A stretch of 41,394 bases of DNA from Thermodesulfobacteriota bacterium (GTDB taxonomy: Bacteria; Thermosulfidibacterota; Thermosulfidibacteria; Thermosulfidibacterales; B14-G1): NCBI GenBank assembly GCA_024274915.1, contig JAJSAC010000027.1:1-41394 (forward strand), in the 5' to 3' direction. The notes below the pieces were generated by a model. The model ran no database searches, was not told the origin of the DNA, and was given only the letters and a program-made list of their open reading frames with translations. Within the stretch, counting starts at the first letter, position 1. Each line of letters begins with the position of its first letter. A program made the position numbers and the translations under genes. Shown piece by piece: positions 3,506 through 8,290 of the stretch.

Positions 3506-3666
3506 ATGGTCCCTAAAAACTGGACCATGTGGTAAGCTTTCTATCCACAAACAATTTCAGGGAGAATTCTATGAAAAGGGAGCGCAAGAAGTATTCAGCT
3601 GAATTCAAGGCAAAGGTGGCCCTGGAGGCCACCAAAGAAGATGGGACCATCCGCCGCTTCTTATGA
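3506..3666 (+). mobile_element. IS3-family insertion sequence remnant (left end plus start of orfA)
   Basis: The left part is ATGGTCC-ctaaaaact-GGACCAT (3506-3528), a hairpin of the type seen at the ends of some IS3-family elements, followed by a ribosome-binding site and the first 31 codons of a transposase OrfA. No OrfB or right end is found downstream, where a tRNA promoter and tRNA-Leu follow. The element is truncated and cannot move by itself. I see no recognisable gene in the stretch 3359-3505, apart from a weak 6-bp hairpin (3361-3380) just after the kinase gene. Confidence 0.65.
3571..3666 (+). pseudogene. Truncated IS3-type transposase OrfA (31 aa)
   Basis: The frame starts with ATG after GGGAG and encodes MKRERKKYSAEFKAKVALEA, then TKEDGTIRRFL and a stop. 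The first 20 residues match the N-terminal helix of IS3-family OrfA proteins, which typically read MKRKRKSYSPEFKAKVALEA. A normal OrfA is about 90-100 residues with a helix-turn-helix, so two thirds of it is missing. The sequence after codon 20 departs from the family, which suggests a deletion junction there. Confidence 0.75.
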
Positions 3667-3800: not shown

Positions 3801-3889
3801 GCCGAAGTGGCGGAAATGGGAGACGCGCTGGACTCAGGATCCAGTGGCTGTAATAGGCCGTGCGGGTTCGAATCCCGCCTTCGGCACCA
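3801..3889 (+). tRNA. tRNA-Leu (anticodon CAG)
   Basis: The acceptor stem pairs GCCGAAG (3801-3807) with CTTCGGC (3879-3885), followed by the discriminator A and an encoded CCA. The anticodon arm is CTGGA-CTCAGGA-TCCAG, giving anticodon CAG for leucine CUG codons. The T arm contains GGTTCGAATCC. The long variable arm makes it a type II tRNA, as expected for leucine. It stands alone behind its own strong promoter, next to an IS3 remnant. Downstream to 4163 I see no gene. Confidence 0.97.
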
Positions 3890-5183: not shown

Positions 5184-5231
5184 ATCAATATATAGTGACT
5201 TATCCACAAAAACACCACAATATATAGTGTT
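5184..5231 (+). promoter_or_regulatory. Paired NrdR boxes in front of nrdD
   Basis: The 12-base core CAATATATAGTG occurs twice, at 5186-5197 and 5218-5229, on the same strand and exactly 32 bases apart (three helical turns). The second 16-mer, cacaatatatagtgtt, is close to the known NrdR consensus acaCwaTATATwGtgt. Paired boxes with this spacing upstream of ribonucleotide reductase genes are the hallmark of repression by NrdR in response to ATP/dATP. No nrdR gene lies in the window. Confidence 0.9.
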
Positions 5232-5302: not shown

Positions 5303-7372
5303 ATGGAATACTTGGTGAGAAAGAGGGACAGCAAGATCGTTCCCTTCGACAGAGAGAGAGTAACAAACGCCATTTTTAAAGCTGCCAGGGCTGTAGGGGG
5401 CAGCGACAGGGTAAAAGCCGAAGATCTGGCCAACCAGGTGAGCCTCATCCTCTATGAGCGCTTTTTCAGGAAGGGTTCCATTCCCCATGTGGAGGAGATC
5501 CAGGATCTGGTGGAGAAGATCCTCATAGAGAATGGCCATGCCCAGGTGGCCAAGGCCTATATTCTCTATCGGGAACAGAGACGAGTGGCCAGGGACCTGA
5601 AGAAGGCCCTGGTAGATGGCATGGAGCTTGTGGACCACTACCTGGGCAGGGAGGATTGGCGGGTCCGGGAGAACTCTAACATGAACTACTCCCTCCAGGG
5701 ACTCAACTTTCACATTGCCTCTTCCGTAGTGGCCCGCTACTGGCTCAATCGCCTCTATCCCCAGGAGGTAAGGGAAGCCCACGAAGAGGGAGATTTCCAC
5801 ATCCACGATTTGGGGATTCTAGCAGCCTACTGCGTGGGCTGGGACCTGGAGGACCTTTTGCGTAGGGGGTTCGGTGGCGTGCCTGGCAAGGTGGAGGCCC
5901 GTCCTGCCCGCCACTTGAGGACGGCTCTAGGCCAGGTGGTCAACTTCTTCTACACCCTCCAGGGCGAGGCGGCGGGGGCTCAGGCCTTCAGCAACTTTGA
6001 CACTCTCTTGGCCCCATTTGTCCGGTACGACAACCTAGACTATAAAGGGGTGAAGCAGTGTCTCCAGGAGTTCCTCTTCAACCTCAACGTGCCTACCCGG
6101 GTTGGTTTTCAGACTCCCTTCACCAACATCACCCTGGATTTGGTGCCTCCCTCCACTTTCAGAGACCGCAAGGTGATCTGGGGAGGGGATGAACAGGAGG
6201 CCACCTACAGCGAATTCCAGGGGGAGATGGACATGATCAATCGGGCCTTCGCCGAGCTTATGCTAGAGGGTGATGCCAAGGGGCGCATCTTCACTTTCCC
6301 CATTCCTACCTACAACATCTCCAAGGATTTCTCCTGGGATAAGGAGGAATTGAGGCCCTTGTGGGAGATGACGGGTAAGTACGGCATCCCTTACTTTGCC
6401 AACTTTGTCAATGCCGACATGAGGCCCGAGGATGCCCGTTCCATGTGTTGTCGACTGCGTTTGGACAACAGAGAGCTTCAGAGGAGGGGAGGGGGGCTTT
6501 TCGGGGCGTCCCCCTTGACAGGTTCCATTGGGGTGGTCACCCTCAATCTCCCTCGTATGGCCTACCTCTCCAGGAACGAATCGGAGTTCTTCCAGCGGTT
6601 GGAGCGTTACATGGAGCTGGCCAAGATTTCCCTGGAGATCAAAAGGAAGGTGATAGAGGATTACACAGAAAAGGGGCTCTATCCTTATTCCCGGGTCTAT
6701 CTCTCGGAGGTGAAAAAGTGCCAGGGGCAATACTGGTATAATCATTTTTCTACCATAGGGCTTATTGGAATGAATGAGGCCTGCCTCAACTTCCTGGGTC
6801 TACCTATATACGAGCCTGAGGCCAGGGAATGGGCCGTTAAGGTGCTGAACTTTATGAGGGAAAAGCTCTCCGAGTTTCAGGAAGAGACGGGTAATCTTTA
6901 CAACTTGGAGGCTACCCCAGCGGAAGGCGCTTCCTATAGACTGGCTAAGAAAGATGTCGAGAAGTTCCCCGGCATCATCACCAGGGGCAGGGATTATCCG
7001 TACTACACCAACTCCGTTCATCTGCCCGTGGACTACACAGGGGACCTGTGGGAGATCCTGGAGCACCAAGACGCCCTCCAGATTCTCTTTACAGGGGGCA
7101 CGGTGGTCCACTTGTTTCTGGGGGAGGCTATAAGGGACTATCGAGGGGTGAGGGAACTGGTGCGCTCCATTGTGACCAACTACCATCTGCCCTACTTCAG
7201 CATCACTCCCACCTTCTCTGTGTGTCCCGTTCACGGTTACATTCCAGGGGAGCACACCATCTGTCCTTATCCCCATACCTTGGACGAATTGGGCTCCTTC
7301 GGAGAGGAGCTGGAGGTGGATAGGGAGGCTTTGGAAGAAGCGGCCCAAGGGGCCTATTTAAAGATAGAATAA
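5303..7372 (+). CDS. nrdD: Anaerobic (class III) ribonucleoside-triphosphate reductase, catalytic part lacking the glycyl-radical segment
   Basis: It reduces ribonucleoside triphosphates to dNTPs under anoxia. Start ATG 5303 is chosen over upstream starts because GAGGTGA precedes it and the protein then begins MEYLVRKRDSKIVPFDRERV, a normal ATP-cone N-terminus (about 1-95). The barrel includes FHIHDLG, Cys177 (AAYCVGWD) and the finger-loop MCCRLRLD with Cys382/383. The C-terminus has the first zinc knuckle CPVHGYIPGEHTICP (Cys641, Cys654), but the last expected CPxC knuckle reads CPYPH. The protein then ends after an unrelated acidic tail at 689 aa. The radical-bearing S-R-x-V-G-Y segment is absent here and is encoded by the next ORF, 11 bases downstream. 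Two NrdR boxes precede the gene. It should form an operon with the small ORF and nrdG. Confidence 0.93.
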   Translation: MEYLVRKRDSKIVPFDRERVTNAIFKAARAVGGSDRVKAEDLANQVSLILYERFFRKGSIPHVEEIQDLVEKILIENGHAQVAKAYILYREQRRVARDLKKALVDGMELVDHYLGREDWRVRENSNMNYSLQGLNFHIASSVVARYWLNRLYPQEVREAHEEGDFHIHDLGILAAYCVGWDLEDLLRRGFGGVPGKVEARPARHLRTALGQVVNFFYTLQGEAAGAQAFSNFDTLLAPFVRYDNLDYKGVKQCLQEFLFNLNVPTRVGFQTPFTNITLDLVPPSTFRDRKVIWGGDEQEATYSEFQGEMDMINRAFAELMLEGDAKGRIFTFPIPTYNISKDFSWDKEELRPLWEMTGKYGIPYFANFVNADMRPEDARSMCCRLRLDNRELQRRGGGLFGASPLTGSIGVVTLNLPRMAYLSRNESEFFQRLERYMELAKISLEIKRKVIEDYTEKGLYPYSRVYLSEVKKCQGQYWYNHFSTIGLIGMNEACLNFLGLPIYEPEAREWAVKVLNFMREKLSEFQEETGNLYNLEATPAEGASYRLAKKDVEKFPGIITRGRDYPYYTNSVHLPVDYTGDLWEILEHQDALQILFTGGTVVHLFLGEAIRDYRGVRELVRSIVTNYHLPYFSITPTFSVCPVHGYIPGEHTICPYPHTLDELGSFGEELEVDREALEEAAQGAYLKIE

Positions 7373-7383
7373 AGGAGGAGAAG

Positions 7384-7560
7384 ATGCAGGAGAAGGCCAT
7401 GGTAGAGAGGAGAAGGGCAGAGAGGGCAGCCAGCAGTGTACGGGTGAGGGCCGTGCCCGTGGAGGTCTATTCTAGGATAGTGGGTTACTACAGACCCGTT
7501 AAGAATTGGAACGATGGGAAGAAGGAGGAATTCAAGGATCGTAAGTACGTCAAGCTGTGA
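7384..7560 (+). CDS. Stand-alone glycyl-radical segment of NrdD (58 aa)
   Basis: This short gene encodes what is normally the C-terminus of NrdD: VEVYSRIVGYYRPVKNWN followed by DGKKEEFKDRKYVKL. Gly34 in S-R-I-V-G-Y-Y is the predicted radical site, which NrdG would activate by hydrogen abstraction. Residues 1-25 (many Arg/Glu) replace the usual linker to the zinc site. It has its own strong signal, AGGAGG (7373-7378), five bases before the ATG, and lies in another frame from nrdD, so it appears to be translated separately. By analogy, GrcA/YfiD is a free glycyl-radical subunit that repairs pyruvate formate-lyase. Here the piece would be obligatory, because NrdD itself has none. A sequencing error is less likely because the intervening sequence would not restore a normal NrdD linker. 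Confidence 0.85.
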   Translation: MQEKAMVERRRAERAASSVRVRAVPVEVYSRIVGYYRPVKNWNDGKKEEFKDRKYVKL

Positions 7561-7561
7561 A

Positions 7562-8290
7562 ATGGCTGGATCTTACCCTTCTAAAAAGGGCTGGGGAATA
7601 AGGGGTTTTCAAGGGGTCACCCTTCTGGACTTTCCTGGAAGGGTGGCCTCCTTGGTCTTTCTGGGGGGCTGCACCTTCCGGTGTCCCTTCTGTCACAATC
7701 CAGGCCTGGTTCTGCCCCGGCTCCTTTCCTTGGGGGAGGAGCTTTCTCTCCCCCGGGTCATGGAAGACGTGATAAGGAGGAGGAGACTGGTCACCGGAGT
7801 GGTAGTTTCGGGGGGGGAACCCACTCTCCAAGAGGACCTTTTGATTGAGTTCCTGGCGGAGGCCAGGAGGTTGGGCCTGGCCACCAAGCTGGACACCAAC
7901 GGCGCCCGTCCCGAGGTTTTGGAAAGGGTGCTGGGGGATGGACTGGTGGACGTGGTGGCCATGGACTTGAAGACCTCTCCAGATAAGTATCCTTCGGCTA
8001 CCGGAGGGGGGAACTTCACCCCTGTGGCGGAGAGTCTGAATCTTGTCAAACGGAGGGCTCCCAGGTACATCCTCCGCACCACCCTGGTGCCAGGGGTGGT
8101 GGGATTGGAGGACATGAAGGAGTTGGCCTCCCTGGCCCAGGGGGCCCCTGAGTATCATCTTCAGCCTTTTAGGGGAAAGGTCACCCTAGATCCTCAGTAT
8201 GAAACCTTGAAGCCGTATCCCCCGGATGTGATGAATGCTATGGCCAGGGTTTTGGAGGGAGTTGTGGACAGGGTACTCAGACTCTGGTGA
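7562..8290 (+). CDS. nrdG: Anaerobic ribonucleotide reductase activating protein (radical SAM)
   Basis: This 242-aa radical SAM enzyme has the cluster motif CTFRCPFC (C-x3-C-x2-C) near residue 40, preceded by GFQGVTLLDFPGRVASLVFLGGC, the usual entry of NrdG/PflA activases. The glycine-rich SAM stretch VVSGGEPTL follows. The function is to use a 4Fe-4S cluster and SAM to place the radical on the glycine of NrdD, here on the separate 58-aa protein. I chose ATG 7562, one base after the stop of the small ORF, because upstream codons overlap that gene and have no family similarity. A frame from 7514 would add 16 residues. Translation is probably coupled, since no strong ribosome-binding site is visible. 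This longer type is often called pyruvate formate-lyase 1-activating-like, but the neighbours fix the role. Confidence 0.9.
   Translation: MAGSYPSKKGWGIRGFQGVTLLDFPGRVASLVFLGGCTFRCPFCHNPGLVLPRLLSLGEELSLPRVMEDVIRRRRLVTGVVVSGGEPTLQEDLLIEFLAEARRLGLATKLDTNGARPEVLERVLGDGLVDVVAMDLKTSPDKYPSATGGGNFTPVAESLNLVKRRAPRYILRTTLVPGVVGLEDMKELASLAQGAPEYHLQPFRGKVTLDPQYETLKPYPPDVMNAMARVLEGVVDRVLRLW

Follow-up and report, generated by a model that had tools for sequence, protein, structure and literature searches.

A split class III ribonucleotide reductase with its glycyl-radical loop encoded by a separate 58-codon ORF, and body-less relatives of that loop in prophages and viruses

Ribonucleotide reductases (RNRs) make the precursors of DNA, and in their anaerobic form it is the glycyl radical that is sensitive to oxygen. 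Class III enzymes such as the NrdD proteins of phage T4 (1h79), T. maritima (4coi) and P. copri (8p23/8p2s), are single chains, and they have in common with the locus described here the ATP cone, the NRDD core, the zinc motif, the SRxVGY loop and an adjacent NrdG. The difference is that at this locus the radical loop is a separate gene. Small stand-alone glycyl-radical proteins are also known from pyruvate formate-lyase (PFL), for which YfiD/GrcA of E. coli and Y06I of phage T4, the latter encoded by the phage, serve as spare parts that complete a loop-less body (PMC8683613). Such spare-part repair has been validated for PFL only (PMC8683613). The 58-aa protein of this locus, in contrast, is NrdD-type, shorter and encoded in an nrdD-nrdG operon, and its partner body never had a loop of its own; the likeness is one of working principle, in that this protein and the viral loops discussed below may restore a body much as GrcA does.

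Another relevant system is the split class II enzyme NrdJa/NrdJb of Pseudomonas aeruginosa, which is likewise an RNR made from two adjacent genes, both of them needed, and which has been called the sole split RNR of a non-viral organism (PMC4520616). Unlike the enzyme considered here, it is B12-dependent, and NrdJb bears reducing cysteines, not the radical. A further parallel is a RefSeq pair in C. necator H16, WP_011154155 ("ribonucleoside triphosphate reductase") and WP_011154154 ("nrdD", ~65 aa), whose two-gene arrangement is identical to that of the window and which is annotated by name only. No description of a split NrdD, of a separate glycyl-radical gene or of a phage or prophage NrdD radical domain was found in the non-subscription literature searched. 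The split NrdD is thus annotated in RefSeq yet undescribed in searchable papers, and its novelty in the literature is provisional. One published RNR survey used a length filter of 400-1100 residues (PMC9531940), and surveys or annotation pipelines that filter in this way miss the small subunit.

The window, that is, the whole stretch of 41,394 nucleotides that was analysed, carries the operon whose features are collected in Table 1. Its NrdD matches PF13597 (NRDD) at 3.2e-179, above the gathering score, over profile positions 1-525 of 562, and scores 1024.9 bits against NF006126. The finger-loop cysteine motif is MCCR at residues 381-384 (M = 381), one of the two described motif classes (MGCR or MCCR; PMC9669993). 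The protein ends in CPVHGYIPGEHTICPYPH followed by the acidic tail, and a scan of all 689 residues found no R-x-x-GY glycyl-radical motif, so that an NrdD with an acidic tail and without a radical site, as the initial annotation had it, holds to the base. All seven PDB sequence matches to this NrdD are single-chain NrdD or other RNR proteins that have just the ATP cone in common with it; the 58-aa protein has no PDB sequence match.

Table 1. Features of the nrdD region (positions in the window unless given as residues)
Feature	Position	Strand	Remarks
NrdR-box-like repeat 1, CAATATATAGTG	5186..5197	+	read directly
NrdR-box-like repeat 2	5218..5229	+	32 bp downstream of repeat 1
nrdD body	5303..7372	+	689 aa; ATG 5303 to TAA 7370-7372; read from sequence
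ATP cone in NrdD	residues 4-94	+	Pfam PF03477, 6.7e-24
Zinc half of glycyl-radical domain, kept on NrdD (CPVHGY...CPYPH)	7223..7276	+	residues 641-658
Acidic C-terminal tail of NrdD, 31 aa	7277..7369	+	conserved in the order and in Fermentibacteria
T_TTA_AAG heptamer, NrdD frame	7357..7363	+	possible -1 frameshift site into the small ORF
AGGAGG ribosome-binding site of the small ORF	7373..7378	+	5 nt before ATG
Glycyl-radical ORF, 58 aa	7384..7560	+	stop TGA 7558-7560; Gly34 = GGT 7483-7485
nrdG2, radical SAM activase of class III RNR	7562..8290	+	TIGR02495

The small ORF begins 11 bases after the nrdD stop in another frame and encodes a protein with a basic N-terminus and the motif EVYSRIVGYYRPVxxWNxGKxxEFxxR, within which lies EVYSRIVGYYRPVKNWNDGKKEEFKDRKY with Gly34. 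It matches PF13597 at profile positions 533-560 (E 3.1e-10, above the gathering score), and the two proteins together cover the NRDD profile in a complementary, non-overlapping manner. A Pfam search of the small ORF with E values up to 1 returned NRDD alone, and the PFL-type glycyl-radical domain was not matched. The radical motif expected of a class III RNR is therefore in the enzyme, on the separate ORF and not on the core polypeptide, which makes this a split variant and not a canonical NrdD. The activase gene nrdG2, which scores 172.9 bits against TIGR02495 (cut-off 131; 4.6e-51), is adjacent; it probably starts at ATG 7562, though its frame is open from 7514. The sequence thus confirms the separate ORF with its own AGGAGG, its other frame, its Gly34 and nrdG next in line. 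The initial annotation had gone further and called the small ORF exactly the glycyl-radical segment, which is right for the radical loop and too broad for the domain. In fused NrdD, the zinc motif CPxHGY...CPxCG directly precedes the radical loop, and the zinc half of the window's NrdD aligns with that motif, so the cut runs through the glycyl-radical domain. Judged from these alignments, the separate piece is the radical loop and tail only, and the zinc half remains with NrdD.

Upstream of nrdD, the two repeats in Table 1 are the only perfect copies of CAATATATAGTG in the 2.03-Mb genome, and comparable repeats precede nrdD in four further genomes of the set (G001-G004). They resemble the NrdR-box consensus and are putative NrdR boxes. 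Elsewhere in the window (3529-3666 and 3801-3889), a short ORF that by eye looks like the N-terminus of an IS3-type transposase lies beside a tRNA-Leu (CAG) gene.

The search of related genomes that had been proposed shows the split to be conserved: in nine of nine genomes of the order, the NrdD body ends at profile positions 525-533 and the radical ORF is separate. As to the ribosome-binding site and the linker, Shine-Dalgarno (SD) sequences are locally present for most small ORFs of the order (purine-rich in G001-G004). The small ORF starts anywhere from 26 nt inside the body to 18 nt after its end (-26 to +18 nt), and its frame relative to the body is 0, +1 or +2, differing between genomes. 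In all 11 members compared, the body tail carries a negative charge (-6 to -15) and the N-terminus of the small protein a positive one (+1 to +5). Among G000 (the window's genome) to G003, the small ORF has a dN/dS of ~0.04-0.1, with 17-27 changes at third codon positions against 1-8 at each other position.

These comparisons bear directly on whether the split is real. The window comes from a draft assembly of 77 contigs, which would leave room for a sequencing or assembly indel or for a decaying pseudogene; against this, the split is shared by all nine related genomes and by Fermentibacteria, it is found also in single-contig genomes and finished plasmids, and the small ORF is under purifying selection. 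The unbroken relatives that were to be watched for did not appear among the genomes of the order, and with all nine of these split and the dN/dS values, error or decay is ruled out, its chance being next to nil. A fused protein without a free small subunit could also be made by programmed -1 frameshifting at T_TTA_AAG, which lies in the right frame, with the -1 frame running open as far as the small ORF. This is very improbable, as none of the relatives' junctions shown has the heptamer, all three frame relations occur across the order, and each small ORF has a start of its own, with an SD sequence for most. Considering that both spacing and frame relation vary, neither an indel nor a conserved frameshift can explain the pattern, and frameshift fusion was rejected as the mechanism on the variable frame relation and the unconserved heptamer.

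Work with a broader sample of 386 genomes, 151 of them with NRDD, gives by our own count ~44 of the 151 with a split NrdD, meaning that the body ends ahead of the loop and the loop has an ORF to itself. Examples come from Fermentibacteria, Desulfuromonadales, Halanaerobium, Burkholderiales, Spirochaetes and archaea, and from plasmids of Cupriavidus and Sulfuricurvum. Its presence in so many other groups rules out that the split is unique to this lineage; the early doubt on this point was well placed, as the split is common and the short protein already has a name in RefSeq. In a further, class-wide sample, one genus had short-frame loops (~71-117 aa) in each of its 26 matched genomes. The junctions are of several types: besides that of the window, there is one in which both pieces have helical tails, a short one bearing Cys, a proteobacterial one (CEIWTRVMGYHRP) and one led by GNLILDDGTVIP. 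At least 12 changes between fused and split forms, in either direction, were counted on a tree of the body only, at least six of them forced by well-supported branches; the tree was made by a quick method. With these well-supported branches of the quick tree, a single origin of the split is incompatible.

Several variants of the arrangement were also seen. The loop gene lies on another contig than NrdD in two genomes (L237, G337 C50; L238, G308 C205) and after nrdG in Halanaerobium (L098). In Spirochaetes and a few others (L050, L074, L088, L100, L102, L203, L205), the radical subunit has a C-terminal thioredoxin-like domain, with a frame of ~160-220 aa and a matching body without a radical loop. 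One stand-alone radical gene on the minus strand (L216, G021) is interrupted, its glycyl-radical ORF lying at ~2130-2274 and 1192-1254; the break comes immediately behind the codon for the radical glycine (KTEIYSRVVG, followed by a stop), and the ~0.9 kb between the parts, which holds a LAGLIDADG ORF, is probably an intron, with no Rfam intron match for the interrupted gene. Another NrdD type (L195, L197 and L241, in G236, G096 and G364) ends at profile position 531 with no loop found by the profile, and a divergent separate loop is possible there. Distant NrdD bodies in G274 and G150 (L224, L227) lie near separate proteins of 100-130 aa with the loop end ITRVTGYF or ITRIVGYYSK, which is probably a further split type.

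As to function, 13 of the 43 split genomes lack a match to PF02867, the profile of class I/II RNR, so the split enzyme appears to be the sole RNR there; G108 (99% complete) and G246 (96%), both single-contig genomes, are among the 13. A PF02867 RNR (class I/II type) is, however, present in the genome of the window itself (G000:C43:34789-36240), so NrdD need not be essential in this organism. On pHG1 of C. necator H16, the body, the loop and the activase are three adjacent genes, and one study reports NrdDG of this strain as essential for complete anaerobic denitrification (PMC2864759); the literature searched yielded no experiment that addresses the loop gene itself.

The operon very probably encodes a working two-subunit class III (anaerobic) RNR, an assignment made from gene content and conservation. 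In such an enzyme, NrdD would contribute the ATP cone, the zinc half of the glycyl-radical domain and the 10-stranded barrel, which holds the active-site cysteines, while the 58-aa protein would contribute the radical loop with Gly34 and the C-terminal tail, docked at the normal barrel position. NrdG, from the next gene, would install the radical on Gly34. We infer the heteromeric assembly, the radical installation and the benefit alike. Oxygen cleaves glycyl-radical proteins at the glycine, and the likely benefit is that a cheap 58-aa subunit, not a 77-kDa enzyme, would be lost, the damage being confined, as we propose, to a replaceable part.

The structural models, single-chain AlphaFold2 predictions of in-frame read-through pseudo-fusions from relatives, are compatible with canonical docking. 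In one of them (L040), the radical piece (731-770) has a pLDDT of ~68-83, the linker is disordered and the acidic NrdD tail is a folded part. It superposes on single-chain NrdD from barrel to radical loop, with a Z of 34.0 to P. copri NrdD 8p2s over 95-772 (563 residues at an rmsd of 3.0) and a Z of ~20 to PFL-type enzymes; since both model alignments contained fused relatives, the loop placement is biased to the canonical position. In a Spirochaete pseudo-fusion, confident helices are predicted for residues 660-691 of the body tail and 710-725 of the small N-terminus (block means reaching 96 and 94), which would fit a docking pair.

Radical loops also occur away from any NrdD. Some split genomes have extra loop ORFs (L239 in G002 C117; L240 in G025 C55; L242 and L243 in G042 C68 and C83). 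The one in G002 is flanked by a Terminase_6C protein and a Portal_Mu protein (7.6e-83), that in G025 has GemA, TniB-like AAA and capsid proteins in its vicinity, and the two in G042 adjoin GemA-like proteins (Pfam match below the gathering score). By their gene content, these are Mu-like prophage neighbourhoods in hosts with a split NrdD. A scan of IMG/VR gave 551 relatives, and the best 80, picked by similarity to short loop proteins and so not representative in their proportions, comprise 63 stand-alone loops (no body within 6 kb), 14 fused forms and three split forms with a body. The whole contigs of all 63 (L245-L323), which may be fragments of genomes with a body elsewhere, hold only the NRDD loop part and no NrdD body, and the same is true of the ANMV-1 virus (L325, AJP62049, 145-aa frame). 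Among the tested neighbours of the viral loops are terminases, portals and a DnaB-like helicase. The radical glycine is invariant in all 63 viral copies, as are P at +4 and R at +19, which lie outside the search patterns, and 954 of 1461 differences between viral loops fall at third codon positions (pairs not independent). Upstream of six of the viral loops stand two CxxC motifs, which together resemble a complete zinc ribbon. In PHROGs, no family is devoted to the viral loop pieces.

The body-less loops of prophages and viruses look like the "spare parts" that are so far only a proposal for enzymes beyond PFL. That many viruses carry the radical tip alone suggests that the tip is an exchangeable part, and we see an even chance that body-less viral and Mu-like prophage subunits complete, repair or take over the host class III RNR during infection, with the cellular split being the same exchangeable-subunit principle, fixed in genomes many times. 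Small phage proteins often inhibit host enzymes, and the viral loops might instead inhibit or titrate host NrdD or NrdG; this is unlikely given the invariant glycine, P +4 and R +19, which are what would be expected of an active part. A better contender, if somewhat short of even, is a permanent two-chain enzyme in which damaged parts are not exchanged and the split either has no effect on fitness or serves regulation, as it would by limiting the active sites per dimer or by allowing varied radical subunits such as the fusions of the glycyl-radical domain (GRD) to thioredoxin. The thioredoxin-like domain on Spirochaete small subunits would fit such an enzyme, as would the confident helices of that split type, expected for tight docking, and P. 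copri NrdD orders one GRD only per dimer (PMC11226230). The repeated origin of the split and the viral carriage of the radical piece alone point the other way, to an interchangeable part. That the subunit may dissociate and that damaged radical parts may be exchanged is a good hypothesis, and it is indirectly backed by the body-less radical loops of prophages and viruses.

With the radical on a small separate subunit, labelling, mutation, damage and replacement could be applied to that subunit independently of the enzyme body. Such an enzyme would also answer the question raised in PMC8683613 of whether enzymes other than pyruvate formate-lyase have glycyl-radical spare parts, and the viral copies would be a new phage route to dNTPs in anaerobic hosts.
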